37,098 nucleotides of DNA, taken from a virus. The translations under genes were made by a program, and so were the position numbers. Below the pieces are notes generated by a model. It was not told the DNA's origin. It made no database searches and worked only from the letters and a program-made list of their open reading frames with translations. The stretch spans positions 1 through 37,098 of the IMG/VR virus record IMGVR_UViG_3300026132_000003, one strand, 5' to 3'. The number at the start of each line of letters is the position of its first letter. Position 1 is the stretch's first letter. Shown one piece after another: positions 55 to 36,668 of the stretch.

Positions 55-573
55 ATGGAGAGCAGTATTTACCCCGGACGAATCGTCGCAATTGACCCGG
101 GCGATGTCCGGTCGGCCTGGGTGCAAATCGTGGAAGGACGCCCGGAGAGGTGGAGCATCGACAACAATCTGCATTTGCGATCGCGCATCCTGGATGGGGC
201 TTTCTCGCACGCCGAATACCTCGTCATCGAAATGATCGCATCCTACGGAATGCCAGTCGGCGCCACAATTTTCGAAACCTGTTTCTGGATCGGGCGATTT
301 CGCGAGGCATGGCGCGGTCCGTGCGTTCGACTCACCCGCAATCGCGTCAAGCAACATATTTGCCACAGTGCCCGCGCAAAGGACTCGAACATCCGCCAGG
401 CGCTGATTGATCGATACGGGCCCGGGAAGGAGCGCGCGATCGGGCGCAAGGCGATGCCGGGCCCGCTGTATGGGGTCAAGTCCGACCTCTGGGCCGCGCT
501 CGCCGTGGGCCTGACCTTTCTGGACCAGCGCGGGAATGTTCGGGTCCCGGCCGTCCCTGTGGAGCTGGACTGA
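55..573 (+). CDS. RuvC-like Holliday junction resolvase (RNase H fold)
   Basis: A 172-residue protein with the acidic-residue pattern of RuvC/RNase H-fold nucleases: a first strand ending in AIDPG (D14), a second strand LVIEM (E59), and a C-terminal helix SDLWAALAVG (D144). These would bind two metal ions to cut branched DNA. In phages such enzymes resolve recombination or replication intermediates before packaging. The start is supported by AGGAGGG at 43-49, six bases before the ATG. The stop overlaps the next start (TGATG). A TGA at 4-6 may end an upstream gene outside the window. The fold is inferred from motif spacing; another RNase H-like phage nuclease is possible. Confidence 0.7.
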   Translation: MESSIYPGRIVAIDPGDVRSAWVQIVEGRPERWSIDNNLHLRSRILDGAFSHAEYLVIEMIASYGMPVGATIFETCFWIGRFREAWRGPCVRLTRNRVKQHICHSARAKDSNIRQALIDRYGPGKERAIGRKAMPGPLYGVKSDLWAALAVGLTFLDQRGNVRVPAVPVELD

Positions 574-1799
574 TGGGAAACAAAATTCGACTTCCGAGGG
601 AAATCCAGATGCGTCCAATCGCTGCCCTGGTTCCCTACGCGAAAAATTCACGCAAGCACACCTCGGCCCAGATCGACCGGGTGGCCCGATCCATGCGCGA
701 GTTTGGATGGACCAATCCGGTCCTGGTCGACAAGGCGGGGAACATTATCGCGGGCCACGCCCGCGTGCTCGCCGCTGAGCGCATCGGGCTCGAGCAGGTC
801 CCGACCATAGACCTCTCTCACCTGTCCGATGCTCAGCGCCGCGCCTACATCCTGGCCGACAATCGCTTGGCGGAGGACGCGAGTTGGGACCGCGGGCTCC
901 TTCGTGTGGAGATCGAGGCCTTGCATGCCGAGGCGTTCGATCTGGACACGATCGGATTCAGCGCCTCTGAGCTGGAGCGTCTGCTGGGCCCTGCCGATGG
1001 TCTGACCGATCCCGACGAGCTTCCCACGGACGCCCCCAGGCGCACATCGGACGGGGACCTATGGGTATTGGGCAGGCACCGGCTCCTCGTGGGGGACGCG
1101 ACGGACGCCGCGTCCGTTGCCTGTCTGTTCGGCGATGAGGTGCCTCTTGGCATGGTGACCGACCCTCCCTACGGGGTGAATTACGACCCCGAATGGCGTT
1201 CCCGGGTTCAGGATTCACCGCGCACGAGAAAAATGGGCCGCGTCATGAACGATGACCGGGCTGATTGGCGCGAGGCCTGGGCCCTCTTTCCTGGCGATGT
1301 TGCGTATGTATGGCATGCAGATAAAAAGGCGCGCGTCGTCCAGGAGAGCCTGGAAGTGGTCGGTTTTAATATTCGCGCCCAAATTATCTGGGTGAAGGAC
1401 AGCTTCGCGCTCTCGCGTGGCCATTACCACGCGCAGCATGAGCCCTGTTTTTACGGCGTGCGTCGCCGTGGGCACTGGACGGGAGACCGGACTCAGAGCA
1501 CCGTCTGGGAAATTCCCGCACGCGAGGATTCCGGACACGGGCACTCCACGCAGAAGCCGGTCGAGTGCATGCGCCGCCCAATGCTCAACAATTCCGAACC
1601 GGGCGCGATCTGGTATGACCCGTTCGTCGGGTCTGGGACCTCGATCATCGCGGCCGAGAGCTGCGATCGGCGATGCTTTGCGTTCGAGCTAGAGCCCCGC
1701 TATGCGGACATCGTTCTCGCCCGCTGGGAAGCGTTTTCCGGCGGCACGGCGAGTCTGGAGAAAAACCTGAAGGGATCGGGGCATGGCGACAAGAATTGA
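573..1799 (+). CDS. ParB/Srx-domain fused to beta-class DNA adenine methyltransferase
   Basis: 408 residues in two parts. Residues about 12-100 form a ParB N-terminal-like domain (R-P-I-A-A-L-V-P-Y start, then INPVLV-like and IIAGHAR strands). Residues about 160-400 form an S-adenosylmethionine-dependent methyltransferase. Catalytic motif IV DPPYG is at 197-201 and AdoMet-binding motif I DPFVGSGT is at 349-356, so the order IV then I marks the beta class; DPPY points to N6-adenine modification. This fusion is common in phages and prophages, where it may protect phage DNA from restriction or set its methylation state. It is coupled by overlap to the preceding resolvase. The recognition sequence cannot be read from the protein. 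Confidence 0.88.
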   Translation: MGNKIRLPREIQMRPIAALVPYAKNSRKHTSAQIDRVARSMREFGWTNPVLVDKAGNIIAGHARVLAAERIGLEQVPTIDLSHLSDAQRRAYILADNRLAEDASWDRGLLRVEIEALHAEAFDLDTIGFSASELERLLGPADGLTDPDELPTDAPRRTSDGDLWVLGRHRLLVGDATDAASVACLFGDEVPLGMVTDPPYGVNYDPEWRSRVQDSPRTRKMGRVMNDDRADWREAWALFPGDVAYVWHADKKARVVQESLEVVGFNIRAQIIWVKDSFALSRGHYHAQHEPCFYGVRRRGHWTGDRTQSTVWEIPAREDSGHGHSTQKPVECMRRPMLNNSEPGAIWYDPFVGSGTSIIAAESCDRRCFAFELEPRYADIVLARWEAFSGGTASLEKNLKGSGHGDKN

Positions 1800-1824: not shown

Positions 1825-2409
1825 ATGCAACTGGAACAGCGGACAATTCCCGACCTGATGCACGAGTGGGCGCGGTGGGCCTCCCAGGGCGGCGCGGCCG
1901 CCAGCCTGGGGTATCGGCCCTACTCCAGCGAGGCGACGATCCGAAGCCTCGCCCTCGCCGAGAGCCCGCGCAACCCGACCCATCCCAAGGCGCCTCGGCC
2001 GCTGACCGCCAACGGTAAGCAGACGCGCTCGTTTCGCGGTGACCGTCTGCGCGTGGATCCCGTTCCCGAGCGCGTGGACCGCTGCATCGCGGAGATGCGA
2101 GTCCTCTACCCCGAGGCATTCCTGGTGCTCGTGGCCGAATACCTCGGGATGGTCCCGGTGTTCGAGGCCGAGGCCTGGCGCCCGCGCTGGCGCGGACGGC
2201 GCTGGGATCGGCGCCTGCACGCGCTCCAGGCGCGGCCCAATGCCGGCTGGCGCTGGCGGTTTCGCCCCCGGCGCACCGGCGAGCCTGCGCACACCTACCA
2301 GGAGCGCATGGCCACCACCCTCGGCCTGGGCGACCGGAAGCGGTATCGTGAATGGCTGGACCGCGCGCAAATCCTCCTCTACGGCATCCTGATGACCGGC
2401 GATCTCTAG
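1825..2409 (+). CDS. Probable Q-type late antitermination protein
   Basis: A 194-residue basic protein. The start at 1825 is preferred over an in-frame ATG at 1783 because an AGGGAGGTGA ribosome site sits at 1811-1820. The layout resembles the phage antitermination Q family: a WARWA motif near the N-terminus (15-19), a central helix with D-x-C-I-A-E-M then L-V-A-E-Y-L-G, and a C-terminal segment (about 157-185) reading like a helix-turn-helix plus helix (YQERMATTLGLG, then WLDRAQ). Context strongly supports this: a sigma70-like promoter begins five bases after its stop, with a terminator just downstream, as in lambdoid pR'-tR'. A Q protein would bind at the promoter, load onto paused polymerase and let it ignore terminators. 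Family call by eye only. Confidence 0.6.
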   Translation: MQLEQRTIPDLMHEWARWASQGGAAASLGYRPYSSEATIRSLALAESPRNPTHPKAPRPLTANGKQTRSFRGDRLRVDPVPERVDRCIAEMRVLYPEAFLVLVAEYLGMVPVFEAEAWRPRWRGRRWDRRLHALQARPNAGWRWRFRPRRTGEPAHTYQERMATTLGLGDRKRYREWLDRAQILLYGILMTGDL

Positions 2410-2413
2410 GGGA

Positions 2414-2443
2414 TTGACACCGGGGGGAACTTTTGCGTACATT
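2414..2443 (+). promoter_or_regulatory. Putative late promoter (pR'-like)
   Basis: A perfect -35 TTGACA lies at 2414-2419, then an 18-base spacer, then TACATT (4 of 6 matches to TATAAT) at 2438-2443. It begins just after the stop of the Q-like gene and reads towards the terminase and structural genes. A start near 2450 would give a leader of only about 45-50 nt before the terminator at 2474-2497. This is inferred from sequence; no other hexamer pair in the gap is as good. Confidence 0.6.
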
Positions 2444-2473
2444 CACAGGCAGACTGCGACAGCTATTCCCGAG

Positions 2474-2497
2474 GGGCGCCGATGTGGCGCCCTTTTT
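2474..2497 (+). terminator. Rho-independent terminator just after the late promoter (tR'-like)
   Basis: Perfect 7-bp stem GGGCGCC (2474-2480) and GGCGCCC (2486-2492) around a GATGT loop, followed at once by five T residues (2493-2497). It lies between the promoter at 2414 and the first gene of the late block, so it would stop all late transcription unless polymerase is modified. That fits regulation by the adjacent Q-like protein. Confidence 0.75.
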
Positions 2498-2517
2498 CGT
2501 GGGCGGGAGGACCGGAC

Positions 2518-2694
2518 ATGATCGGTGCCATCATCGGGCTATGCGTCGGGGCCGCGCTTGCCGCCCCCATCGCCTACCAGGTCGGGCGCGTCGTGGAGCG
2601 CCGTCGCACGGCCCCCCGCGCCCCGTCGTCGCCGGAGGTCGGCGCCGCGCGCCCTACCACCCGCAACCCTTCGGCCCGGCCCTCGCAGCGCTGA
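2518..2694 (+). CDS. Small single-TM membrane protein (possible N-terminal part of a split gene)
   Basis: 58 residues: one hydrophobic segment at about 2-22, then an Arg-rich turn (VGRVVERRR) and a Pro/Arg/Ser-rich tail with little predicted structure. A GGGAGG ribosome site at 2505-2510 fits the ATG at 2518. It is the first gene after the late terminator, a position where many phages keep holin or lysis genes. The tail looks non-native, and a more protein-like continuation lies in the -1 frame (2541-2894). The two frames could be joined at a run of six C at 2612-2617, so this may be the front half of one membrane protein. Function unknown. Confidence 0.5.
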   Translation: MIGAIIGLCVGAALAAPIAYQVGRVVERRRTAPRAPSSPEVGAARPTTRNPSARPSQR

Positions 2695-2894
2695 GCGCCC
2701 CGGAGGCTCGCCGCCTGGCGGGCGAGCTGGAGGCAATGCTGGCCGAGATTCGCGCCCACGGCGGAGCGGACTCGCCCGGCGTCCTCGAGGCCGCCATTAC
2801 CGTCCAGGCGCGCCTGAGCTACCTGCGCGAGCTGGCTGAGCGAAAATGCGCACACACTGAGAACCCCGATCATGGCCACACGCAAGACCGCTAG
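2541..2894 (+). CDS. Helical protein in -1 frame (possible C-terminal half of split membrane gene)
   Basis: The 3' half of this frame (from about 2670) codes for a convincing amphipathic helical domain rich in Ala, Glu, Arg and Leu (SAPEARRLAGELEAMLAEI), with G/C-ending codons. The 5' half (ATG at 2541) looks like a shadow of the overlapping small membrane ORF. There is no good ribosome site at 2541; a CTG at 2691 overlapping the stop of the upstream ORF is another possible start. The simplest reading is that this is the C-terminal part of that ORF, joined by a -1 shift. It overlaps the start of the small terminase gene by 23 bases. Function unknown. Confidence 0.4.
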   Translation: MRRGRACRPHRLPGRARRGAPSHGPPRPVVAGGRRRAPYHPQPFGPALAALSAPEARRLAGELEAMLAEIRAHGGADSPGVLEAAITVQARLSYLRELAERKCAHTENPDHGHTQDR

Positions 2895-3324
2895 TCGCGG
2901 CAGGAAAACCAAAGCCCGGAGCAAGGGCGGCCGCCCCCGCCTCGAGATCGACTGGAAGGTCGTGACCGGCCTTTGCCAGATTTTCTGCACGCTGGAGGAG
3001 ATCGTTTCCGTCCTGGGAATCTCCGAGGACACGCTCGAGCGCGCATGCGTTCGCGAACACCACATGCGTTTTGCGGACTTCCGTAAAAAGCACAGCGCCT
3101 CGGGACGGATGAGCTTGCGCCGCGAACAGTACCAGGCGGCCAAGCGTGGGAACACGACGATGTTGATCTGGCTTGGCAAACAGCACCTGGGCCAGCGGGA
3201 CAAGATCGAGCGCGACGACACGGTGCGCTTCTCGCAGCCGATCGAGGAATGGACGGACGAGGAGCTGATGGCGGCGCTGTCCGGGCGCGGCGATGTAATG
3301 GCCGGCGAGCAGCAGACCCACTAG
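2872..3324 (+). CDS. Terminase small subunit
   Basis: 150 residues. A basic, probably disordered N-terminus (about 1-24) is followed by GRPRLEIDW and a helix-turn-helix-like stretch (about 28-62: CTLEEIVSVLGISEDTLERA), the usual DNA-binding module of phage small terminases. A helical part then carries the frequent AAKRGNTTMLIWLGKQHLGQ motif (about 85-105), common in small terminase-like proteins. It would form a ring that recognises the packaging site and hands DNA to the large subunit encoded 10 bases downstream. Its start overlaps the preceding ORF. Confidence 0.75.
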   Translation: MATRKTASRGRKTKARSKGGRPRLEIDWKVVTGLCQIFCTLEEIVSVLGISEDTLERACVREHHMRFADFRKKHSASGRMSLRREQYQAAKRGNTTMLIWLGKQHLGQRDKIERDDTVRFSQPIEEWTDEELMAALSGRGDVMAGEQQTH

Positions 3325-3334
3325 GCACACGCGG

Positions 3335-4924
3335 ATGAGCAGGGCTCAGTCTGCGCGCGCCGTCGCGATGGAACGCGTGGACGAGCGCATTCGCGTGGAG
3401 CTGCGCCGGCGCCGGCTGGCGCGCGAGTCCTTGGTCGCGTTCTCGCGGTCCATCATCATTCCCGGCGCGCCTGCGGGCGACGATCCCGAGGCCTGGGTAT
3501 TCGAGCCCGTCGAGTCGGGGATCGCCGCGCACCATGCGCTGACGATGGAGCGCATCCAGGCATGCATCCAGAAGCCCTACGGGCGCCTGATGATCTTCGA
3601 ACCGCCGGGCTCAGCGAAGAGCACCTATGCCAGCGTCGTCGCCCCGACCTGGGCGATGGGGCTCGTACCCGGGCTGCAGGTCCTGGCAACCTCCTACGGC
3701 AGCCGGCCGATCGAGCGGCACTCGCGGCGCGCACGCCAGATCGCGGCCTCGTCGCTCTACCGGCGTATATTCGGGGCCGCGCTCAAGGAGGGCTCCAGGG
3801 CAGCGGATCAGTGGGAGCTGGACAACGGCTCGCGCTATTACGCTGCCGGCCTGATGGGCGCGATCACCTCCACGCGCTGCGGCCTGGGCATCATCGACGA
3901 CCCGGTCGCCGGGCGGCAGGAGGCCAGCTCGGATACGGTGCGGCGGGCGACTCGCGAGGCCTACGAGGACGACTTTCTCACGCGCCTGGTCCCGGGCGCC
4001 TCGATCATCCTGATCCAGACGCGCTGGGACGAGGACGACCTGGCGGGCTCTATCCTGCCCGAGACCTGGAACGGCGAGTCGGGGCTGATCGAGTGCCGGG
4101 ATGGGCAGACCTGGGAGGTGCTGTGCCTGCCGGCCGAGTGCGAGCGCACCGACGATCCCCTGGGCCGCGAGGTCGGGGAGTACCTCTGGCCCGAGTGGTT
4201 CGACGAGAGTCACTGGGCCATCTTCCGCAAGAACCGCCGGACGTGGGAGTCGCTCTATCAGCAGCGGCCCCACGCGCTCAAGGGCGCGTTCTACAGCGAG
4301 GACGACCTGCTCGTCGACGGCGCGCCGGCCGAGGTCCCGGAGCGCATGGACGTCGCCTACGCGGTCGTGGACACGGCGAGCAAGACGGGCACCGAGCACG
4401 ACGGCGTGGGCGTGGCGTTCTGGCTGCACTCGCGCCACCTGCCCTATCCGCTCATCCTCTACGACTGGGAGCTGCGCCAGATCGAGGGCGCCATGCTCGA
4501 GACATGGCTGCCGACAGTATTCGAGCGCCTCGAGCACATGTGCCGGCAGCACCGGGTTCGACTCGGCTCGGCTGGGGTGTTCATCGAGGACAAGGCCTCG
4601 GGCATCGTGCTGCTCCAGCAGGCGGCGCGGAACCAAGAATGGGCTGCGCGCGGCTGGCGGGCCCAGCCGATCGAGTCCAAGCTCACCTCGCTCGGCAAGG
4701 TCGAGCGCGGGATCAACGTCTCGGGCTATGTCCACTCGGGCCAGGTCAAGATCGCGCGGCCGGCCGTTGACCGGATCAGCGAGTTCAAGGGCGCGGCCCG
4801 CAACCACATGCTCTCGCAGGTACTGTCCTTCGACCCGGGCGTCAAGGACATGGGCGCTGACGACCTGTTCGACTGCTTTTGTTACGGCATTGCCATCGGG
4901 ATCGGTGGCGCGGAGGGATTCTGA
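3335..4924 (+). CDS. Terminase large subunit (packaging ATPase/nuclease)
   Basis: 529 residues, a normal length for the family. The N-terminal ATPase has a Walker A-type loop EPPGSAKST (89-97) and Walker B GLGIIDD (183-189), and an IQTRW segment follows (about 227-231). The C-terminal RNase H-like nuclease has AVVDTAS (D346), FIEDKASG (E418, D419) and a late acidic cluster GADDLFD. It powers DNA translocation into the prohead through the portal and cuts the concatemer. It lies directly after the small subunit and before the portal, with only two tiny ORFs between, the usual order for this module. Confidence 0.93.
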   Translation: MSRAQSARAVAMERVDERIRVELRRRRLARESLVAFSRSIIIPGAPAGDDPEAWVFEPVESGIAAHHALTMERIQACIQKPYGRLMIFEPPGSAKSTYASVVAPTWAMGLVPGLQVLATSYGSRPIERHSRRARQIAASSLYRRIFGAALKEGSRAADQWELDNGSRYYAAGLMGAITSTRCGLGIIDDPVAGRQEASSDTVRRATREAYEDDFLTRLVPGASIILIQTRWDEDDLAGSILPETWNGESGLIECRDGQTWEVLCLPAECERTDDPLGREVGEYLWPEWFDESHWAIFRKNRRTWESLYQQRPHALKGAFYSEDDLLVDGAPAEVPERMDVAYAVVDTASKTGTEHDGVGVAFWLHSRHLPYPLILYDWELRQIEGAMLETWLPTVFERLEHMCRQHRVRLGSAGVFIEDKASGIVLLQQAARNQEWAARGWRAQPIESKLTSLGKVERGINVSGYVHSGQVKIARPAVDRISEFKGAARNHMLSQVLSFDPGVKDMGADDLFDCFCYGIAIGIGGAEGF

Positions 4925-10484: not shown

Positions 10485-11507
10485 GTGGCAAACATCGCAA
10501 CCGCATGGGTCCAGACCCATCCGTCCTTCGTCGAGCCTGGTCTGCTCCTGCAGTACAACCAGGCCTCGGGGGCCTTCGAAACGCTGGCTACCGGCAACCC
10601 GCTCGTCAAGATCGGCTCGGAGGACCTCGCGGTCTACATCCGTCGCCTTGACGTGCGCACGCAGGTCGCAGCCGGCCAGGCGGCATACAACGAGCTGCCG
10701 TCGGTGCAGATCGTGGCCGATATGGCCTCGACACCGACGTACCTGCAGCAAGTTCGCGCCGAGTACGACCACCACGACACGGCCGCCATGGCCAACTGGG
10801 GCACCTCGATCGTCGAGGCCCAGCGCCTGGGCATGCGCCAGGGGCATTTCCAGCTCTTGCGCAACTCGCTGCTCTACGGGATGAACCCGGCGAACGGCGA
10901 GGGCTTGCTCAACACCAACGGGGCGACCAGCGTGTCCCTGCCGCCGGACTCGAACGGCAACGACACGGTCGCGACCTACGACAACGGGCAAATGGCGTTC
11001 TTCTTCCTGCAGCAGATCTCGGGGGCGAAAACCCGCACGATGCAGCTCGGGCTCCCGCGCAAGTTCGTCATCCTCGGCCCGCAGCGAGTCCTGAGTGCCT
11101 TCGAGTACCAGGGCATCGTCCAGCTGACGCAGTACCAGCGCCCCGGCGCCGGCACGGCCTCGGTTGCGGGCACCGTCAAGGCGGTCGCCGAGGAGAACGG
11201 GGACGAGATCGTATGGGTCTACGACGACACCCTGATCGGCAAGGGTGCCGGGGGCACCGACGCGGTGCTGCTGGTCATGCCCGAGGTCGAGAAGCCCGAG
11301 GGGCCGGAGTGGTCCACCAACGAGTTCGCCAAGCTCGAGCCCGGCATCGCGGCCTGCACGTTGCAGTACGCGGACGTCGCGGCCCCGGTCGAGATTCCGA
11401 CCCCGCTGCCCGGCGGCGCGATCGACGTGCTGTCGGAGATGCGGGCGACCCCCGGCTGGGCGGTTCGTCCCGAGGCGGTCACGATCGTCTCGATGACCTA
11501 CCAGTAA
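10485..11507 (+). CDS. Major capsid protein, DUF2184-like (HK97 fold expected)
   Basis: 340 residues. The GTG at 10485 follows CAGGAGGAG at 10472-10480. The order of motifs resembles the DUF2184/gp6-type capsid family: an N-terminal LLQYNQASGAFETLA segment, a long spine-like helix around DYHHDTAAMANWGTSIVEA-type residues, then a conserved C-terminal part with VYDDTLIGKGAGGTDAVLL and MPEVEKPEGPEW. It forms the icosahedral shell. Followed by a strong terminator, which fits a very highly expressed gene. No Lys-Asn crosslink can be judged by eye. Confidence 0.82.
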   Translation: MANIATAWVQTHPSFVEPGLLLQYNQASGAFETLATGNPLVKIGSEDLAVYIRRLDVRTQVAAGQAAYNELPSVQIVADMASTPTYLQQVRAEYDHHDTAAMANWGTSIVEAQRLGMRQGHFQLLRNSLLYGMNPANGEGLLNTNGATSVSLPPDSNGNDTVATYDNGQMAFFFLQQISGAKTRTMQLGLPRKFVILGPQRVLSAFEYQGIVQLTQYQRPGAGTASVAGTVKAVAEENGDEIVWVYDDTLIGKGAGGTDAVLLVMPEVEKPEGPEWSTNEFAKLEPGIAACTLQYADVAAPVEIPTPLPGGAIDVLSEMRATPGWAVRPEAVTIVSMTYQ

Positions 11508-14392: not shown

Positions 14393-15778
14393 ATGGCCAA
14401 CTCCATCGTAGAGGTCGACGTTTCGGTTACCGCTGCGCCGACGCCGGCGAGCCTGCAGCGGACCGGGGCGCTGATCAGCCAGGGCGCGACGACGGCGACC
14501 GTCGGGGACTACAAGCTGCTCACGCAGTACTCGGACCTCGCATCGCTGCTCATCGCCCCGCTCGATCTCCAGTCGCTCACCTGGTCGGGGGGCACGGTCA
14601 CGGCCACGGCGGTCGCCAACCTGGCCGCCAACGTCTCGACGGGCGACACCTTCCCCGTGACCATCTCCGGGGCGTCTCCGGCCGGCTACAACGGGACGTT
14701 CCTCGCCACCGTCACGGGGGCCGACACCTTCACCTACGCGCTCTCGGCCAATCCGGGCACCGAGACGGCGCCGGGTACCTACACCGCGCCGGGCGTGGTG
14801 GAGCTGCAGCAGATGGCGCAGACCTTCTTCGCCCAGGGGGCACAGATGTCGGTCTACGTGCTGGAGCTGGGGGCCGGCGACGCCGCGAGCGGCGTGACGC
14901 AGCTCACGAGCTTCATCACGGCCAACCCCTCGACGATCTACGCCTACCTGATCCCGCGCAGCTGGGACAGCGAGCCGACGTTCCTCTCGTTCCTCTCGGG
15001 GTACACGGGCGTCACGGCCATGACGTACTTCTTCGTCACCACGACCGTCGCCTCCTACACGCAGTACTCGAGCACCGAGAAGTGCGTCGTCGCTCTAGTG
15101 GAGAGCCCGGACGCGCCGCTGACGGAGTTCTCCTGCGCGGCCGCGCTCTGGTCCGCCCTGCACTACGACCCCTCCAGCACCAACAAGGTCACGCCCTTCG
15201 CCTTCTCGTTCCTCTCGGGCGTCACGGCCTACCCCGTCAAGGGCAACTCGGCCACGCTGGCGGCGCTCAATGGCGCACATGTCAACTACGTGGCCGTGGC
15301 CTCGGAGGGCGGCCTGACCAACACCATGCTCGCCTGGGGGACCACGCTCGACGGGCGCGATTTCACCTACTGGTACTCGGTGGACTGGGCGCAGATCAAC
15401 CTCGGGCGCGCGATCGCCAATGCGGTCATCAACGGCTCGAACAATGCGCTGAACCCGCTGTATTTCAACCAGGACGGCATCAACCGCCTGCAGGACGTGG
15501 TTGCGGCCACGCTCCAGAGCGCGGTGACCTACGGGCTGTCCATCGGGACGGTCGTGCGCTCCTCGCTCAGCGGTCCGGCATTCACCCAGGCGCTGGACGC
15601 CGGGACCTACGACGGCGATGACGTGGTCAACGCGGTCCCCTTCGCCGACTACGTGGCCGCCAATCCCGGGGACTACAAGATCGGTAAGTACGCCGGACTC
15701 TCGGCGGTCTATATCCCGGCGCGCGGGTTCCTGCAGATCGTGTTCACGCTCAACGTCACCGATTTCCTCTCACAGTGA
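14393..15778 (+). CDS. Tail sheath protein (DUF3383-like)
   Basis: 461 residues with TAGGAGG before ATG. N-terminus MANSIVEVDVSVTAAPTPAS and the C-terminal part (DFTYWYSVDWAQINLGRAIA, NQDGINRLQDVVAATLQSAV, then a final FTLNV strand) match the order of contractile sheath subunits of the DUF3383 type. A beta-rich module at about residues 61-134 (LTWSGGTV to TYTAPG, with AGYNGTF and VTGADTFTYAL) interrupts the N-terminal domain and looks inserted; a similar module occurs in the baseplate plug gene at 19192. The sheath contracts to drive the tube through the cell envelope. It defines the phage as a myovirus. Confidence 0.85.
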   Translation: MANSIVEVDVSVTAAPTPASLQRTGALISQGATTATVGDYKLLTQYSDLASLLIAPLDLQSLTWSGGTVTATAVANLAANVSTGDTFPVTISGASPAGYNGTFLATVTGADTFTYALSANPGTETAPGTYTAPGVVELQQMAQTFFAQGAQMSVYVLELGAGDAASGVTQLTSFITANPSTIYAYLIPRSWDSEPTFLSFLSGYTGVTAMTYFFVTTTVASYTQYSSTEKCVVALVESPDAPLTEFSCAAALWSALHYDPSSTNKVTPFAFSFLSGVTAYPVKGNSATLAALNGAHVNYVAVASEGGLTNTMLAWGTTLDGRDFTYWYSVDWAQINLGRAIANAVINGSNNALNPLYFNQDGINRLQDVVAATLQSAVTYGLSIGTVVRSSLSGPAFTQALDAGTYDGDDVVNAVPFADYVAANPGDYKIGKYAGLSAVYIPARGFLQIVFTLNVTDFLSQ

Positions 15779-28760: not shown

Positions 28761-30497
28761 ATGGCTATCTCGCTCGTCCAGTACGCCGTCGCCGATACGC
28801 AGTCGGGGGGAACGAGCCCCTGCACGGTCACGCTTTCGAGCGCGCCGTCCCAGGGCTCCCTCCTGCTGGCGTTCGTCAGCGTCAAGAACGGCGCAGGAAC
28901 GACCAATCCATTCACCGCGCCCTCTGGCTGGACCGTCGACCAGAGTAACGATTTCAACACGGACGGATCAACGTTCTCGGAATGGCTGATTACCGCCTAC
29001 AAGGTCGCGGGAGCCAGCGAGCCGACCTCGTATGACTTCGCGAGCAGCGCGGGCCTTGGCCTGGGCGCCATGGTGCTCGAATACAGTGGTGTCGACTCCT
29101 CGGTATTTGACGCTGCCTCGGTAATCTCCAGCGGGACCAGCTCCACGCCGTCCGTCACGGGCATCACGACCGGGACGAACGGGGCAGAGGTCGTCGCCGG
29201 GTTTGGCGTCGCCGGCGGCGGGGCCACTTTCACCGTTCCCTCCCCATTGACGCTCGTCGACCAGGAGAACGCTGCCGGTATCGCGACGAATTACGTCGTC
29301 GGGAATAACAACTACGCGAGCGCCGGCGCTACGGGAAACTTCGCATTCAGTGCCGGGGTCTATGTCGCCTATGGCGGCGTCGTAGTGGCACTCAAGCCCT
29401 CCTCGACGAGCCCCGCTCTTTCCGGGACAGTAGATGTGGCGCTGACGCGCGGGCTCTCGGCGAGCGTTAGCACGGTACTTTCCGGGACGGGAGACATGAC
29501 CTCGGGGCGCCTCGCGGGCCTGCTCGCCTCGCAGAGCTACACCGCTCCCAGCGGAAGCTGGATTGGCACGGCGTCGGTCGCGCGCTCGCGGGCAATGGGG
29601 ATCTCCGTCTCCTATGCCCAGGGTGGCAACAATACCGCCGGTGTGGCGGAGTCGCGCTCTCTCTCGGCATCATATCTCTACGATGCGGTGGGTGCCGAGA
29701 ACATTGCATTCGGCCGGGGCTTGTCGGTATCCCTGATCTACGGACCGTCAGGCGACTCCTCCATTTCATCTCATCGTGGGATGACTGCCGGATTCTCCTA
29801 CGCCGTCTCTACTAGCCTGTCAGCTACCTCGACGCGCGCTCGCGCGCTCGCGCTTGCGCTTGCCTACTCGCCGGCCGTACTCGCCGAGTCGCTTCGCAGT
29901 CGGGCCCTTTCGGCAGCGTCGGTCTACTCGCCGGTGGTCTCTGCCACCATTGCACGGGCGCGCGCATTTTTGGCCTCAACGCGCCCCGGCATTTTTGCGT
30001 CGACCGCAATTGCCCGGGCACGATCGCTCCTTGGGTCGGCGCGCTATTTTGTGCCTGGTGGCCTCGACCAGGCGGCGCTGCATTCAAACCGCGGCCTCAC
30101 GGCGTCGGCTATCTATGAGACGCCCTCATTCTCCGTCGACGTCTATGTCTGGGCGGTCGCGGGCGATCCGCCGGCCACCGAGTCGAACCTGTACCTGAAC
30201 GTCAACGAGTGGGGCGCGCGGCTGTTCGTCTACGCCGGTTTCGACCTTTCCGGCGCGAGCGGTCTCGTGCTCGAGTTGATCCGTCCCGATACCTCGATCA
30301 TCTCGGTGCGCCCGTCCCTGCAAACTGCGGGCACCACCACGAGCGGGGGAGAGTCCTGGGGGGGCAACCAATATGTCCTGTATGTCACCGAGCAAGGCGA
30401 CCTCGACCAGGTCGGGACCTGGGGGGCGCGCATCATCTACTCCGACGCCGTCCAGTCGATCCCGACCGACATCGGCTCCTTCAACGTGGGGCCATGA
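28761..30497 (+). CDS. Tail adhesin with eleven arginine repeats
   Basis: 578 residues in three parts. Residues 1-212 form a beta-sandwich like those in many phage and bacterial surface proteins (GSLLLAFVSVKN, then TAPSGWTVD, AYKVAGASEPTSYDF, MVLEYSGVD). Residues about 222-455 are eleven ~20-residue repeats, each with a key Arg (230, 250, 277, 299, 319, 339, 361, 381, 401, 421, 444) followed by a Leu/Met, Ala/Ser-rich stretch and usually Tyr. Residues about 456-578 are a BppU-like beta domain (LNVNEWGARLFVYAGFDLSG, then GDLDQVGTWGARIIYSDA). Likely a fibre or receptor-binding protein. The repeat style recurs in the baseplate gene at 23212. Confidence 0.6.
   Translation: MAISLVQYAVADTQSGGTSPCTVTLSSAPSQGSLLLAFVSVKNGAGTTNPFTAPSGWTVDQSNDFNTDGSTFSEWLITAYKVAGASEPTSYDFASSAGLGLGAMVLEYSGVDSSVFDAASVISSGTSSTPSVTGITTGTNGAEVVAGFGVAGGGATFTVPSPLTLVDQENAAGIATNYVVGNNNYASAGATGNFAFSAGVYVAYGGVVVALKPSSTSPALSGTVDVALTRGLSASVSTVLSGTGDMTSGRLAGLLASQSYTAPSGSWIGTASVARSRAMGISVSYAQGGNNTAGVAESRSLSASYLYDAVGAENIAFGRGLSVSLIYGPSGDSSISSHRGMTAGFSYAVSTSLSATSTRARALALALAYSPAVLAESLRSRALSAASVYSPVVSATIARARAFLASTRPGIFASTAIARARSLLGSARYFVPGGLDQAALHSNRGLTASAIYETPSFSVDVYVWAVAGDPPATESNLYLNVNEWGARLFVYAGFDLSGASGLVLELIRPDTSIISVRPSLQTAGTTTSGGESWGGNQYVLYVTEQGDLDQVGTWGARIIYSDAVQSIPTDIGSFNVGP
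29424..30125 (+). repeat. Eleven ~20-residue arginine repeats in the adhesin
   Basis: Arg spacings are 20, 27, 22, 20, 20, 22, 20, 20, 20 and 23 residues. Consensus roughly A-x-x-R-x-R-[GAS]-[LM]-x-[AV]-[SA]-x-x-Y. Copies differ in DNA, apart from a short low-complexity cgcgctcgcg patch near 29834. Confidence 0.65.
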
Positions 30498-30819
30498 CCT
30501 CGGCCTGTTCGATCGCTTCGCCGTCTGGGTCGACCAGAAGGTCGGGACCGCACGCGCGTTCTGCCTCGCCTTCGCCTCGATCATTCTGTGGGGCGCCTCG
30601 GGGCCGTTTCTGGACTTCTCGAACCGCTGGCAGCTGATCGCCAACACGGGGACGACGATCGTGACGTTTCTGATGCTGTTCACCGCCGCCTACGGCAACA
30701 ACCGGGCGCACCACGAGGACATGCGTATCCGAGACGAGCAGCACCGAGAGGAAATGGAGGTGCTGCGCACGCTGACGGAGGAAATCCACGCCCGCGTGCA
30801 TCAGGACATGGGAGGGTAG
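30373..30819 (+). CDS. Low-affinity iron permease-like small membrane protein (start uncertain)
   Basis: The convincing part begins at about 30505: LFDRFAVWVDQKVGTARAF, a membrane helix (CLAFASIILWGASGPF), then the hallmark WQLIANTGTTIVTFLMLFTA and a charged C-terminal helix. This is the pattern of the small PF04120-type 'low affinity iron permease' family; in phages its role is unknown. The reading frame has ATGs only at 30373 and 30382, deep inside the adhesin gene; the ATG overlapping the adhesin stop (30494) is one frame off. An indel, a CTG start at 30505 or an upstream start are all possible. Its position opens the lysis-type region. Confidence 0.55.
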   Translation: MSCMSPSKATSTRSGPGGRASSTPTPSSRSRPTSAPSTWGHDLGLFDRFAVWVDQKVGTARAFCLAFASIILWGASGPFLDFSNRWQLIANTGTTIVTFLMLFTAAYGNNRAHHEDMRIRDEQHREEMEVLRTLTEEIHARVHQDMGG

Positions 30820-32298: not shown

Positions 32299-32730
32299 AT
32301 GGGATGGATGACCGGCACCGTCGCCAAGCTGATCGGAGGGGCTTTTGCCGTCGTCGCACTGGGCGTGGCGATCTGGCTCGGGGTGCGCTTCGAGATGGGT
32401 CTGATCGACTCCCGCGCGACCTGTCGCTCGGACCTGGCTCAGCTCCAGGCGAAGGAGCAGAATGCGGCCGACAGCGCCCGGGCCCAGCAGTTGAGCGCCG
32501 ATCGGCGTGCGGTGCAGGCGATGGCCGCCTACGCCCGCGAGAGGGCCTCAGCGGCCGCGAGCGCCCGGGCGGCGGCAAGTGCCGCCACGGCCCGGATCGC
32601 CTCGTACCGCGCGGCTCTGGCGCACGCAGAGTCCGCTTCGAGCAGCGCGCGCGCCCAGGCGGCGCTATGCCTGGACCCGGCCATCCGCCAATCGCAGGGG
32701 TTCGCGAAACAATGTCCCACCAAGCCCTGA
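32299..32730 (+). CDS. Inner-membrane spanin (i-spanin, Rz-like)
   Basis: 143 residues. Basic/short N-terminus, one membrane helix (about 10-28, IGGAFAVVALGVAIWLGV), then a long Ala/Arg/Glu/Gln coiled-coil periplasmic part (DLAQLQAKEQNAADSARAQQ and SAAASARAAASAATARIAS) and a short C-terminus with Cys. It overlaps the o-spanin by 19 bases. Together the pair fuses inner and outer membranes at the end of lysis, which implies a Gram-negative host. Confidence 0.75.
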   Translation: MGWMTGTVAKLIGGAFAVVALGVAIWLGVRFEMGLIDSRATCRSDLAQLQAKEQNAADSARAQQLSADRRAVQAMAAYARERASAAASARAAASAATARIASYRAALAHAESASSSARAQAALCLDPAIRQSQGFAKQCPTKP

Positions 32731-33017
32731 TCCGGGGAGCCGGAGCCGCGCTTCTCGCGCTCGCCCTGGGCGCCTGCGCCCAGAAGCCGCCGATCGTGCC
32801 CGTCACGCGCATCGTGACGGTGACCAAGCGCGTTTATATCGTGCCGAAGAAGGCGCTCCTCGCCCCGTGCCCGACGTCGGCGCCGCGCCCGGCGATCGCC
32901 AACATCGGCGATCTCGTGCAGGGATTCGACCGTAACGCGCAGGGGCTGGACTGCCGCCAGAAGAAGATCAACAAGGCGCTGCACTTCCACGCGCCCGCGC
33001 CCACTACCTCCCACTAG
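32712..33017 (+). CDS. Outer-membrane lipoprotein spanin (o-spanin, Rz1-like)
   Basis: 101 residues starting inside the i-spanin in another frame. Lipoprotein signal: hydrophobic LLALALGAC with lipobox Cys22. The mature part is Pro/Lys-rich (KPPIVPVTRIVTVTKRVYIV), with several Cys that could form disulfides. Bigger than lambda Rz1 but normal for longer o-spanins. Its TAG stop at 33015-33017 overlaps the stop of the opposing small ORF. Confidence 0.75.
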   Translation: MSHQALIRGAGAALLALALGACAQKPPIVPVTRIVTVTKRVYIVPKKALLAPCPTSAPRPAIANIGDLVQGFDRNAQGLDCRQKKINKALHFHAPAPTTSH

Positions 33018-33123: not shown

Positions 33124-33492
33124 CTACGTTGCCTGGTTGCACCCGATCACGGTCAGTGCGTTCACGACGACCTGCGCCTCCGGCACGATGTTGCCGGCCT
33201 CGGCGTCGATCTTGTGGTCCATGTAGCCAGCGTGCCAGATCGCTCCCATCTCGAACATCAGCGCCGCGCGCCCGTCCCCCTTGTAGGACAGCCCGGCGTT
33301 GAGCATCGTATTATCGACCGTCGAGACCTCCCGTTCGACGTAACTGGCGATTGTCTTATGCGCGCTCTGCGCACCCCAGCCGTCGATCAGCATGCGCTGG
33401 GCGGCCATGCAGAACCCCGATCCTGCCGCGTCGGCGAACGCGTCGGTCATGAACATCGCCGCCAGGGCGAGCACGAAAATCAGCTTCTTCAT
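33124..33492 (-). CDS. Small secreted periplasmic protein
   Basis: 122 residues on the minus strand, with GGGAGGAAAACCG before ATG. Signal peptide MKKLIFVLALAAMFMTDAFA with a cut after residue 20. The mature part is about 100 residues with two Cys (28 and 118) that could form a disulfide, and an Asp/Tyr-rich core (YVEREVSTVDNTMLNAGLSY; WHAGYMDHKIDAEAGNI). No family recognised. It ends the leftward cluster together with the small membrane peptide. Exclusion or periplasmic control of lysis are guesses. Confidence 0.6.
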   Translation of the reverse strand: MKKLIFVLALAAMFMTDAFADAAGSGFCMAAQRMLIDGWGAQSAHKTIASYVEREVSTVDNTMLNAGLSYKGDGRAALMFEMGAIWHAGYMDHKIDAEAGNIVPEAQVVVNALTVIGCNQAT

Positions 33493-33531
33493 CGGTTTTC
33501 CTCCCTTTGAATTCTGTGAGGATGGTGGCGA

Positions 33532-34143
33532 TCATTGGTCTTTCCATTCAATCCCGAGGATATGCAAGATCATTTCCCGCGCTTGCATGGCATCGAACAG
33601 GTTTGTCCCCGTGGGCTCATGGCGCATAGGCGGCTTCCCCTGCTTTGCCATATATTCGACGTTAAATTCTGGCTCAAACGATATGCCAGCGTCGGGGCAG
33701 AAATTCTCGGGCAACCTCCACCCTAGAAAGCGATCCACCATCGCGTCTATTTCGTCCTTGCTGAACCGGCAAACAGGGGGCGGTGGGGCGGCTTTTGCCG
33801 CCGCCTTCTGCGCGTTTTCGACTGCACGTTCAATAGCAGTATGGATTCCCCTTGCTATGATCGTCGCAACGTCATCATCTCCATCCCACTCGCTAGTATC
33901 TATGCCGCACTTCTCTATGGCTTCAAGTAGTCGAGTGACCTCAATAGTTTCTTGCTGCTCGGCCTCCTGCCGTTCTTGCGCGAGGGCGGCTTCTAGTTCG
34001 TCGGCCTTTAAGCTAATTGCTCGCGCCATGTCTCGGTAAGTTGTACGGGTCGGCATACGCATATATTTCTGGTTTGACTTCTTTTGTAGATTACGCGCTT
34101 CCTTGCGCCACTTCTCGGGCAAATCGTCCAGCTTCTCAGTCAT
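33532..34143 (-). CDS. Hypothetical phage protein with conserved C-terminal domain
   Basis: 203 residues. The start at 34143 is chosen; a longer frame to 34194 overlaps the upstream gene. The N-terminal half is charged and helical (ARAISLKADELEAALAQERQ). The C-terminal ~75 residues carry FLGWRLPENFCPDAGISFEP, then YMAKQGKPPMRHEPTGTNLF, a segment found in many phage early-region proteins, with no known function. A/T content is higher than in the structural genes. Lies in the leftward cluster. Confidence 0.65.
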   Translation of the reverse strand: MTEKLDDLPEKWRKEARNLQKKSNQKYMRMPTRTTYRDMARAISLKADELEAALAQERQEAEQQETIEVTRLLEAIEKCGIDTSEWDGDDDVATIIARGIHTAIERAVENAQKAAAKAAPPPPVCRFSKDEIDAMVDRFLGWRLPENFCPDAGISFEPEFNVEYMAKQGKPPMRHEPTGTNLFDAMQAREMILHILGIEWKDQ

Positions 34144-34153
34144 GTCTGAACCC

Positions 34154-34414
34154 CTATTTCTGGCGCCACTCGTCGGCAGCAGCGCAACTCGCAAAATGTG
34201 AGGTATAGAGCCGCTCGTCTGCGGCCTTGGCCATGTTCAGGGCATGTCCGCTCAGAACAACGCCCAGATCCTTGTTCCCCGGCGCCCCGCCGACGATCAC
34301 GCGGATATTCCCCTCGCGGCCTGGCGTGGGGTCCACCGGCATGTTGCCGCCCTTTTCGGTTCGCACCCATCGGATCGTGTATCCACATCCGCGGCACTCG
34401 TCAAAATGCAGCAT
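34154..34414 (-). CDS. Zinc-ribbon-like phage protein
   Basis: 86 residues. The ATG at 34414 fits GGAGGG at 34422-34427; an ATG at 34429 is closer to the preceding gene but has a poorer site. Four possible zinc ligands: C7-x2-C10 near the start and H73-x3-C77 near the end. Between them are YTIRWVRTEKGGNMPVDPTP, a stretch seen in phage early proteins, and a Gly-rich middle part. It overlaps the upstream gene by 14 bases. Probably small nucleic-acid-binding or structural zinc protein. Confidence 0.6.
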   Translation of the reverse strand: MLHFDECRGCGYTIRWVRTEKGGNMPVDPTPGREGNIRVIVGGAPGNKDLGVVLSGHALNMAKAADERLYTSHFASCAAADEWRQK

Positions 34415-34655
34415 CCCCGTTCCCTCCATTGATGATCTCTATCAGCTGTGCCTCGACCTCGGATGCTCGGCGCGCGAGCGCGACCAGGGCACCCATGACA
34501 GCCTCATCGGCAGTCAGCTCGCCCTTCTTCCAGGCCATCACGAAATGGTTGAGCACCGGCAGATTCAGGCGCATGGCGAGATGCGCCAGCTCCTGCATCG
34601 TCCAGTCCACGCCCTCTGCCGTGCGCGGGTCGGGCGGGGCGTCTGCGCCGCTCAT
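34401..34655 (-). CDS. Small helical hypothetical protein
   Basis: 84 residues, starting MSGADAPPDPRTAEGVDWTM and ending in a long helix (VEAQLIEIINGGNGDAAF). Two amphipathic helices in the middle (ELAHLAMRLNLPVLNHFVMA; ADEAVMGALVALARRASE). Start ATG at 34655 overlaps the stop of a tiny upstream ORF (ATGA), and its end overlaps the next gene. No family recognised. Confidence 0.5.
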   Translation of the reverse strand: MSGADAPPDPRTAEGVDWTMQELAHLAMRLNLPVLNHFVMAWKKGELTADEAVMGALVALARRASEVEAQLIEIINGGNGDAAF

Positions 34656-34717
34656 GCCGCCGGCTCCCGGTTCCGATCGCCAAACTCCAGCTCCTGTCCG
34701 TTATATGCGAATCCCAT
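34652..34717 (-). CDS. 21-residue micro-ORF
   Basis: ATG at 34717 with GGAGAG seven bases ahead; product MGFAYNGQELEFGDRNREPA plus one Ala. The stop overlaps the next ATG (ATGA), so it could couple translation. It is too short to assess as a functional peptide. The overlap and ribosome site are the only support. Confidence 0.35.
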   Translation of the reverse strand: MGFAYNGQELEFGDRNREPAA

Positions 34718-34861
34718 GTTTGCTCTCCAGTCCGGCGAAAAGGGGGGAGGGGTCGCAATTCCCATTGACGGCTTTTCCTGAGACTCTTGCGGCTTGCGAC
34801 CAGGTCATGGCCGGTATTGCTCCGGCAACCGCCAACCCTTTCCTCCCATTGATATTCCCCT
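34718..34861. other. 144-bp gap without a supported gene
   Basis: On the minus strand a 14-codon frame near the right end (MGGKGWRLPEQYRP) overlaps a 35-codon frame (MTWSQAARVSGKAVNGNCDP start) that ends inside the 21-residue micro-ORF. Neither has a good ribosome site. GWRLPEQY resembles GWRLPENF in the protein at 33532, so this may be a remnant. No clear promoter or terminator was found here. Confidence 0.3.
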
Positions 34862-35554
34862 TCAGCCCTGCTGGGCCGTCGGGACCTTCTCGCAATAAAC
34901 CTCGACCCCGGCGATGTTGGTGTCGCCCTTCATCGCGCGCACGACCTGGCCGATGCGCTTTTCGTCGACCACCTTGTAGGCGTCGGGAATCTGCGCAGCG
35001 TCCACAATGCGAAAGCGCCAGACCTCGCGGAAGGAAATCCCCTCGACCCTAGGGGCAGCCTGCTGAGAGGTTGGCGCGACGACGGTCGCCGCCTCCTGCT
35101 CCAGCGCCGCCGCGCGCTCGGCCTTCCCCGCCTCCTCGGCCCGGCGAGCCTGCTCGAGCTTGCGCGCCCGATCCTTCCGCGCCTTCTCCTCGAGCCGGGC
35201 CTGCTCCTCGCGCTGGCGCCTCTCGCGCTCCCGGTTGAATGCCCCGATGCGGCCCTTAAGGACGCGCTCGGCCTCCTGCAGCACGCCCTCCGGCGCCTTG
35301 AACCATTCGCGCACCTCGCGCAGCGCCTGGTTCAGCGGCTTGAGCGCCCGGTCCTTCTTCGCCTTGAGATTCGCCTGCGCAGTCTTGATCTTGCGCAGCT
35401 GCTCGGCGCTCGCCTGGTACTGCTCATCCGTCGCGATCTGGAACTCCTCGCTGGCTGCCAGTACGGCCGCCGCCTGGTCGTTGAGTTCGGTTACCTGCTG
35501 CTCGATTTCCTGGCGCTCGGGAATCACGCTCGCGCCTTGCTCCATGTTGCTCAT
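34862..35554 (-). CDS. Coiled-coil protein of phage recombination region
   Basis: 230 residues. The ATG at 35554 is preferred to the GTG at 35566 because GGAGAG sits close before it. Residues about 1-150 are a long charged coiled coil (QEIEQQVTELNDQAAAVLAA; RERERRQREEQARLEEKARK). The C-terminal ~65 residues form a conserved domain: ISFREVWRFRIVDAAQIPDA, VVDEKRIGQVVRAMKG, GVEVYCEK. Proteins with this tail often sit beside exonuclease or recombinase genes in phages. Here the neighbour upstream is a PD-(D/E)XK nuclease. Its exact role is unknown. Confidence 0.65.
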   Translation of the reverse strand: MSNMEQGASVIPERQEIEQQVTELNDQAAAVLAASEEFQIATDEQYQASAEQLRKIKTAQANLKAKKDRALKPLNQALREVREWFKAPEGVLQEAERVLKGRIGAFNRERERRQREEQARLEEKARKDRARKLEQARRAEEAGKAERAAALEQEAATVVAPTSQQAAPRVEGISFREVWRFRIVDAAQIPDAYKVVDEKRIGQVVRAMKGDTNIAGVEVYCEKVPTAQQG

Positions 35555-35575
35555 TGCTCTCTCCACGTCATGCGC

Positions 35576-36190
35576 CTAGACCTTGGCGCTTTCCATAAAC
35601 CTCATGACATTCAGGCATGAGACGAATATCGAGAAATCCTGCGAATCCTGAAGGCGGCGCACCCGGTAGGTTCCGCGCTCGAGTTGGAGCACGTAGCGCC
35701 GCGTAATCTTGTGCTTCCCGGGCAACTTCATGCTCTGGTAGGCCTCCAGATAGGCGGCCGTCTGGGGGCGCACACTCGGAAGCAGGAGCCCGGACTTGAT
35801 GTCGACGAGCGCCTTGTAGCCGGGACCCTGGACGATCAGGTCCAGGCGCCCCGCATAGCGATGCAGGCAATGCGCGACCGGCATCTCCCAGGCGAGCGCG
35901 GTCCACTCGTAGTGCGCCTTCGCCAGAGAATACTGGCGCAGAACCTCGCGCAACTCCGGCGCAAGGGCGTCCACGTCCAGATCGCCATCCTCGTGGAACT
36001 GCACCAGGTCATGCACGGCGGTCCCCCATTCGCGCGCCCGGCGCAGCACCTCGGGGTCCACATTCGCAAATCCCCGATTCAGCTGCGCATCCAGCACCGT
36101 GGTCACACTCGTCCACGCCTCTCCGCGCACGTAGTAGATATGCCCCTGTTCCGAGAACAGAATGTCCTCCGGGCGGATCGGATCAATCAT
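35576..36190 (-). CDS. PD-(D/E)XK exonuclease (RecB/Cas4-like)
   Basis: 204 residues. The metal-binding core is readable: GTAVH (H60), AGRLDLI (D117), VDIKSG (D130, K132) and QTAAYLEAY (Q143). This is the H...D...D-x-K...Q arrangement of RecB-type phage exonucleases, which chew DNA ends for single-strand annealing recombination. An annealing partner may be nearby; the coiled-coil protein just downstream is a candidate partner but does not look like a known annealase. Start ATG at 36190 overlaps the preceding stop. Confidence 0.78.
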   Translation of the reverse strand: MIDPIRPEDILFSEQGHIYYVRGEAWTSVTTVLDAQLNRGFANVDPEVLRRAREWGTAVHDLVQFHEDGDLDVDALAPELREVLRQYSLAKAHYEWTALAWEMPVAHCLHRYAGRLDLIVQGPGYKALVDIKSGLLLPSVRPQTAAYLEAYQSMKLPGKHKITRRYVLQLERGTYRVRRLQDSQDFSIFVSCLNVMRFMESAKV

Positions 36191-36417
36191 GCCAGCGGAC
36201 GCATGATGGCGTCATACTCGGCGGCATCGATCTCGCGCACCGCATAGGGCGCACGCGAGAGCCGGTCTACATGGACGCCAGGACTGCCTGTGACGGCGGT
36301 GCCGGTGCAGATGTCGCCGTGTTTCGCGCCGCATTCCTGGCACCGGCCCCAGACCATGCGCTCGCCCTGCGACAGTTGTCGCACTGGGCCCGGGGCCTTC
36401 GTGAATATCATTGACAT
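36187..36417 (-). CDS. Small zinc-finger-like protein
   Basis: 76 residues, GGGAGGGAG before ATG. Zinc ligand set C26-x2-C29, C37 and H49 in RCQECGAKHGDICTGT and GVHVDR, as seen in small phage zinc proteins. N- and C-terminal parts are short and charged. Stop overlaps the nuclease start, so the two are probably co-translated. Possibly nucleic-acid binding. Confidence 0.55.
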   Translation of the reverse strand: MSMIFTKAPGPVRQLSQGERMVWGRCQECGAKHGDICTGTAVTGSPGVHVDRLSRAPYAVREIDAAEYDAIMRPLA

Positions 36418-36668
36418 GATTGCTCCCTCCCTCGTTGGCCGCCGCCTATGGTCCAGGCGGCGACTGCGTCGTAGGATTCCCGCGCTGACTCACTTAATAG
36501 CAATTTTGCCCACTCCCAATCAAACTCGCTCGCATGACTCCGGCACCACCGATCAGTGATCGTTATATAGCCATTATCCCCGCAGTATTTGAGAAATAGT
36601 TGATACTGCCCTTGGCACGGCTCTTTCTCTTTTACAGTGCTTGCGTATAACCGACGGCTGTTACTCAT
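36408..36668 (-). CDS. Paralogue with single copy of WCRSHASEFDW domain
   Basis: 86 residues with CGGAGGCAGATC before ATG. Central domain GYITITDRWCRSHASEFDW is repeated almost exactly in the truncated gene next to it (36661-37098). After the domain one degenerate 11-residue unit remains (ESARESYDAVA), then a short Gly/Gln/Arg tail. Overlaps both neighbours by a few bases. The gene looks like a shortened duplicate of its neighbour. Function unknown. Confidence 0.5.
   Translation of the reverse strand: MSNSRRLYASTVKEKEPCQGQYQLFLKYCGDNGYITITDRWCRSHASEFDWEWAKLLLSESARESYDAVAAWTIGGGQRGREQSCQ

Follow-up and report, generated by a model that had tools for sequence, protein, structure and literature searches.

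Phage Q proteins have been assigned to families that include Q21 (PF06530), lambda Q (PF03589), and Q82 (PF06323) (PMC7171158), and the described system closest to the locus presented here is the Q/PR′/tR′ unit of phage 21. The sequence of the phage 21 binding element was inferred from the text of PMC6606751 and then sought in viral sequences, where it was found in 88 stretches, most of them phage-21-type loci encoding a 162-aa protein, which is the protein in PDB entries 6jnx and 6p18. The order of elements in these loci is the Q stop codon, 6 nt, TTGACA-N17-AACACT, an A at +1, TAAGCT at +2 to +7, a hairpin, and a T-run at +40 to +46. The Q protein of the Variovorax phage VarioGold (OP296522) has been published as a PF06530 member on the basis of HHpred. 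In Pseudomonas aeruginosa, AlpA loads at the promoter and bypasses intrinsic terminators that lie close to the transcription start of its targets, starting 26 or 54 nt after it (+26 and +54) (PMC7969949).

Our window, the whole stretch of DNA that was analyzed, comprises the 37,098 bases of one IMG/VR virus record from a GC-rich tailed phage known only from metagenomes, and no end repeats were found in it. Our sequence and profile data indicated that the locus upstream of its terminase genes is very probably a Q-dependent late-gene switch of the phage 21 type, composed of and surrounded by the following features.

55-573, plus strand: early, upstream gene resembling a Holliday junction resolvase (PHROG 1770, E = 3.4e-14)
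573-1799, plus strand: ParB-like nuclease/DNA methyltransferase gene directly 5′ of Q (PHROG 498, E = 6e-127; Pfam PF01555)
1825-2409, plus strand: Q-like antiterminator gene, 194 aa (Q21-family profile, 29.5 bits; weak PDB fold matches, only to Q21; PHROG 79, E = 0.25)
2414-2443, plus strand: predicted late promoter, TTGACA (2414-2419), N18, TACATT (2438-2443) (same placement behind Q in the phage 21, AS1, and Marinobacter loci)
2449-2451, plus strand: predicted transcription start (hexamer spacing, phage 21 as reference)
2450-2455, plus strand: candidate −10-like pause element CAGACT (+2 to +7 if +1 is 2449; a weak sequence match)
2474-2497, plus strand: predicted intrinsic terminator, GGGCGCC (2474-2480), loop GATGT, GGCGCCC (2486-2492), T5 (2493-2497) (sequence and fold)
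2518-2694, plus strand: first ORF of the late block, 58 aa, Shine-Dalgarno GGGAGG (ORF list and sequence)
2872-3324, plus strand: terminase small subunit (PHROG 309, E = 3.8e-7)
3335-4924, plus strand: terminase large subunit (PHROG 38, E = 3e-64)
5173-33017, plus strand: remaining collinear late block with portal, capsid, tail sheath, baseplate, tail, and lysis genes (PHROG matches)
10485-11507, plus strand: capsid gene (PHROG match)
14393-15778, plus strand: tail sheath gene (PHROG match)
32712-33014, plus strand: Rz-like spanin, a lysis gene located distally in the late block (PHROG match)

The phage is a myovirus, since genes for a tail sheath, a baseplate hub, and a baseplate wedge were found in the late block by PHROG search. 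All identified genes in 2518-33017 are of late type and lie on the plus strand (PHROG), and the position of the Rz-like spanin places at least part of the lysis cassette at the end of the late block, not at its start. The 58-aa ORF between the terminator and the terminase genes has one apparent membrane span and no family. Within the late block and close to the lysis genes, the protein encoded at 30373-30816 strongly matched the Pfam low-affinity iron permease family (PF04120, E = 2e-22) and also the membrane protein PHROG 3485. The genes at 33124-36668 lie on the minus strand, convergent to the late block, and two of them (34865-35566 and 35579-36190) had exonuclease-type PHROG matches. The late operon and what appears to be a leftward early operon would therefore meet end to end near 33.1 kb.

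The sequence-only reading had described TTGACA-N18-TACATT starting five bases after the Q stop, followed by a 7-bp hairpin with T5, and this description was confirmed base for base. TTGACA begins on the fifth base past the stop (a gap of 4 nt) and is a perfect −35 consensus, and the −10 hexamer matches at 4/6 positions. On both strands of the window, this was the only promoter-like pair with at least 10/12 matches, about 0.16 being expected per strand. A composite was defined as a promoter scoring 9/12 or better with, 25-75 nt further on, a T-run hairpin of 6 bp or more; the window has one, and 120 randomized strands had none. The controls were 2,266 ORF ends from other phage loci, taken from ORFs of 150 codons or more; 15 of them (0.66%) had a terminator 70-135 nt beyond the stop codon, and one (0.04%) had both a terminator and a promoter. 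The joint occurrence of the two elements at the end of the Q-like gene is very improbable by chance. Folding of 2450-2500 in RNAfold gave −20.3 kcal/mol (z −2.2), and Rfam had no match to the leader. The hairpin was not listed by a generic terminator scan; in our reading, the scan missed it because the T-run was consumed by a G-T/A-T extension of the stem. The candidate pause element CAGACT retains A2 and T6 and has 3/6 matches, a weak resemblance with a background of 1.6% per position. A near-identical contig (L001/L050, 99.9%) carries identical promoter and terminator sequences and therefore offers no evolutionary test of these elements.

As in phage 21, the Q gene is followed by a promoter with a perfect TTGACA, the gap after the stop being 4 nt here and 6 nt there; and the T-run starts 84 nt past the Q stop compared with 81 nt in phage 21, and covers about +43 to +49, the exact numbering varying with the base taken as +1. 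The weak candidate for a −10-like hexamer, CAGACT, would stand at +2 to +7 if +1 is 2449, where phage 21 has TAAGCT. The encoded protein appears remotely homologous to phage 21 Q (21Q, PF06530 family), but it has 194 aa instead of 162, is very diverged, and has longer loops. Other differences are the spacer of N18 instead of N17, the GC-rich myovirus that carries the locus, and the head genes, not lysis genes, that follow the unit. Also unlike phage 21, the promoter here has no visible direct-repeat binding element, none having been found as an exact repeat in the promoter spacer; this is not decisive, because an exact direct repeat is also absent from most other Q21-family loci surveyed. In Marinobacter-type Q21 loci (L068, L069, L078-L081), a palindrome, TGCATGCA, occurs within the first 60 nt past the Q stop, either between the −35 and −10 hexamers or close to them, and several of these loci have a similar motif, GTGCAGGAAGTGCATC, just downstream. 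The palindrome is a candidate Q binding element unlike the phage 21 direct repeat.

Our survey of 23 Q21-family loci, the window included, revealed a terminator T-run starting 77-133 nt past the Q stop in about two thirds of them, including phage 21, PotUPM1, SC_8, EKP1, PhiR5_1, PseuP224, CF3a/JBD68, AS1, PS3, a Rhodopirellula MAG, and three Marinobacter genomes. Phage 21, AS1, M. xestospongiae, and M. maroccanus have a TTGACA site no more than 25 nt from the Q stop. The window combines a promoter directly after Q with an intrinsic terminator in a short leader, as a phage-21-type unit does. The compact leader, taken by the sequence-only reading for a new variant, is typical of the Q21 class and not new, because phage 21 has nearly the same spacing, about two thirds of the surveyed loci have their terminator in this zone, and the terminators of AlpA targets are similarly close to the start.

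The Q-like ORF starts with ATG at 1825, is preceded by a strong Shine-Dalgarno sequence, AGGGAGGTGA, at 1811-1820, and comprises 194 codons ending in TAG (2407-2409). Pfam and NCBIfam had no match to the protein at E ≤ 10, including the lambda Q (PF03589) and Q82 (PF06323) models, and neither PHROG 127 nor PHROG 753, the respective matches of lambda Q and Chronis Q, was matched. Profiles were made from Q proteins of the PF06530/PHROG 79 type taken from named phages and genomes. With a 10-sequence Q21 profile, the protein aligned in three collinear blocks and scored 19.1 bits (no shuffle exceeded 8.1 and no decoy 7.3), and with a 21-sequence Q21-family profile it scored 29.5 bits, again in collinear blocks, the best of 20,000 shuffles reaching 12.4 bits and the best decoy ORF 8.7. 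For comparison, VarioGold Q, which was left out of the 21-sequence profile, scored 29.0 bits and the real 21Q 37.7 bits. This homology extends along the Q21 core (WxxW helix, D-rich helix H3, and HTH), with conserved blocks at aa 8-35, 84-112, and 160-190 and insertions at about aa 29-77 and 108-156. Two AlphaFold models, one with an alignment and one without, both gave a moderately confident core, disordered insertions, and low mean confidence. Foldseek searches of 350,542 PDB chains with the two models returned 8 and 4 matches, all of them Q21 and each weak (E 1 to 9), the first model having been aided by Q21-family rows in its alignment and the second not.

The Q-like gene proposed at 1825-2409 is upheld by the 29.5-bit score. 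The match to Q families that had been anticipated for its product was obtained with the custom Q21 profile, but not with Pfam or NCBIfam, and PHROG 79 (Q-like) gave only E = 0.25. Judged by its profile scores, the protein is a remote, very diverged homologue of the Q21 family; we use this term, and not Pfam member, because the curated models were unmatched and because VarioGold Q, too, falls below the Pfam cut-off (13.3 of 26 bits against PF06530). Close homologues were looked for among viral contigs, phage and plasmid records, and GTDB genomes, and by translated search of 398 genomes; only the 99% copy came up. Two weak genome matches (L107 and L110) were rejected as homologues on inspection, their frames being broken or antisense, and mixed-family Q alignments contained no stretch conserved enough for a database scan.

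The novelty that remains is the protein itself, which is very diverged and has the longest loops among the surveyed Q21-family proteins in both regions that are functional in 21Q. The span from W18 to D, which includes the stretch from which 21Q builds its RNA-exit-channel ring, has 60 residues, compared with 23-42 in the family and 34 in 21Q, and the Y-to-A span has 75, compared with 27-28 in most members, 47 in Moraxella, and 49 in 21Q. The second enlarged region lies around the HTH and contains many Arg and Trp residues (13 R and 5 W out of 49); in 21Q, the DNA-contacting loop L3 is located near the HTH (PMC6606751). The position of this insertion differs between alignments, being before the first HTH helix in the profile and inside the HTH in another alignment. 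With the exit-channel segment and the HTH-region loop each ~26 residues longer than in 21Q, the protein might be a mechanistic Q21 variant that forms a larger nozzle and reads DNA through the loop, without a direct-repeat site, although we consider this rather unlikely.

In the proposed switch, RNA polymerase would initiate constitutively at the predicted promoter after the Q gene, at about 2449-2451, and without Q would stop at the hairpin, releasing an RNA of ~45-49 nt. As Q accumulates from the early operon, it would bind DNA and load on polymerase that is held close to the promoter and has yet to transcribe the hairpin, the holding point probably being a sigma-dependent pause about 14-20 nt into the transcript. 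Polymerase carrying Q could then pass 2497 and proceed processively for ~30.5 kb, as far as about 33.0 kb, transcribing the collinear head, tail, and lysis genes on the way. Such loading at the promoter and bypass of a nearby intrinsic terminator would resemble the action of AlpA, although the AlpA protein is unrelated and serves a bacterial programmed-death operon.

Readthrough by the 194-aa protein would best explain the arrangement, but other explanations deserve consideration. Terminators are common after regulatory genes, and promoter matches alone are weak evidence, 0.6 being expected by chance in 8 kb; the hairpin might merely end the early transcript after Q, with TTGACA/TACATT a coincidence and the late genes served by another promoter or an activator. 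We regard this as improbable, since a promoter and terminator were paired at just 1 of 2,266 ORF ends, the same order recurs in phage 21 and the Marinobacter Q21 loci, and the window has no other promoter of 10/12. If the promoter is genuine, the protein could still be a DNA-binding activator that recruits or stabilizes polymerase there, the hairpin leaking enough for late expression. The 4/6 match of the −10 hexamer would fit such a role, as would a core similar in fold class to sigma region 4, as in 21Q (PMC6606751). However, the −35 hexamer is a perfect consensus, the relatives of known function are antiterminators, and a terminator in the leader would make activation alone inefficient, so that this explanation is quite improbable as well.

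That the protein is instead unrelated to Q, its resemblance being an artefact of composition or profile building, might be argued from its recognition by no curated family, but its profile score lies far above those of shuffles and decoys, both structure searches returned Q21 only, and its gene has the location and the cis layout of a Q gene, which leaves this idea hardly credible. Antitermination of the phage 21 type is the reading that we retain.

By capsid, the nearest named phages are Klebsiella, Pantoea, Yersinia, and Shewanella phages, with Rac-SA53 more distant. In the Klebsiella phage Chronis, gp65 is a PHROG 753 Q, and a tRNA and lysis genes come after it; Rac-SA53 has an annotated Q gene. 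Both belong to the same virion group and have Q in the same genome slot, between the early genes and the late block, and a Q gene in such a myovirus is consequently not the novelty that had been claimed. Unlike our locus, both have lysis genes between Q and terminase, and the Chronis Q belongs to another family. VarioGold Q is a comparably diverged Q21-family protein and is likewise encoded upstream of terminase with no lysis genes between; however, it has 134 aa and no large insertions, its terminator lies later (279 nt), its promoter is weak, and two small genes, one hypothetical and one for an HNH nuclease, separate it from terminase. The proposal that the unit stands directly before a myovirus head block, with no lysis genes between, holds for the window, but for a Q upstream of packaging genes without intervening lysis genes VarioGold is a precedent. 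What sets this locus apart is the pairing of a Q21-type unit with the head block of such a myovirus, which the unit directly precedes.

No Q was found in the same slot of the methyltransferase and terminase loci, and 80 IMG/VR relatives by major capsid had neither a Q21-like ORF nor a promoter-terminator composite 5′ of terminase, where that region was present. The control cassette may therefore have been exchanged and not be ancestral to the virion group. In Shewanella phage QDWS (L286:37184-37774), RusA and terminase flank an unannotated 196-aa ORF that has a 312-nt gap behind it; this ORF occupies the slot of the window's Q gene, had no antiterminator family match, and is a candidate for an unrecognized late regulator.

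Collectively, the locus is a good new example of the phage-21-type switch, not a new mechanism. It would extend the Q21 class to a very diverged, uncultivated, GC-rich myovirus, in which the geometry of promoter and terminator has outlasted recognizable protein sequence. For annotators, this geometry offers a cis-element signature by which Q genes missed by Pfam can be found, and the 194-aa protein provides a natural test of how far the nozzle-forming and DNA-contacting loops of 21Q can enlarge.
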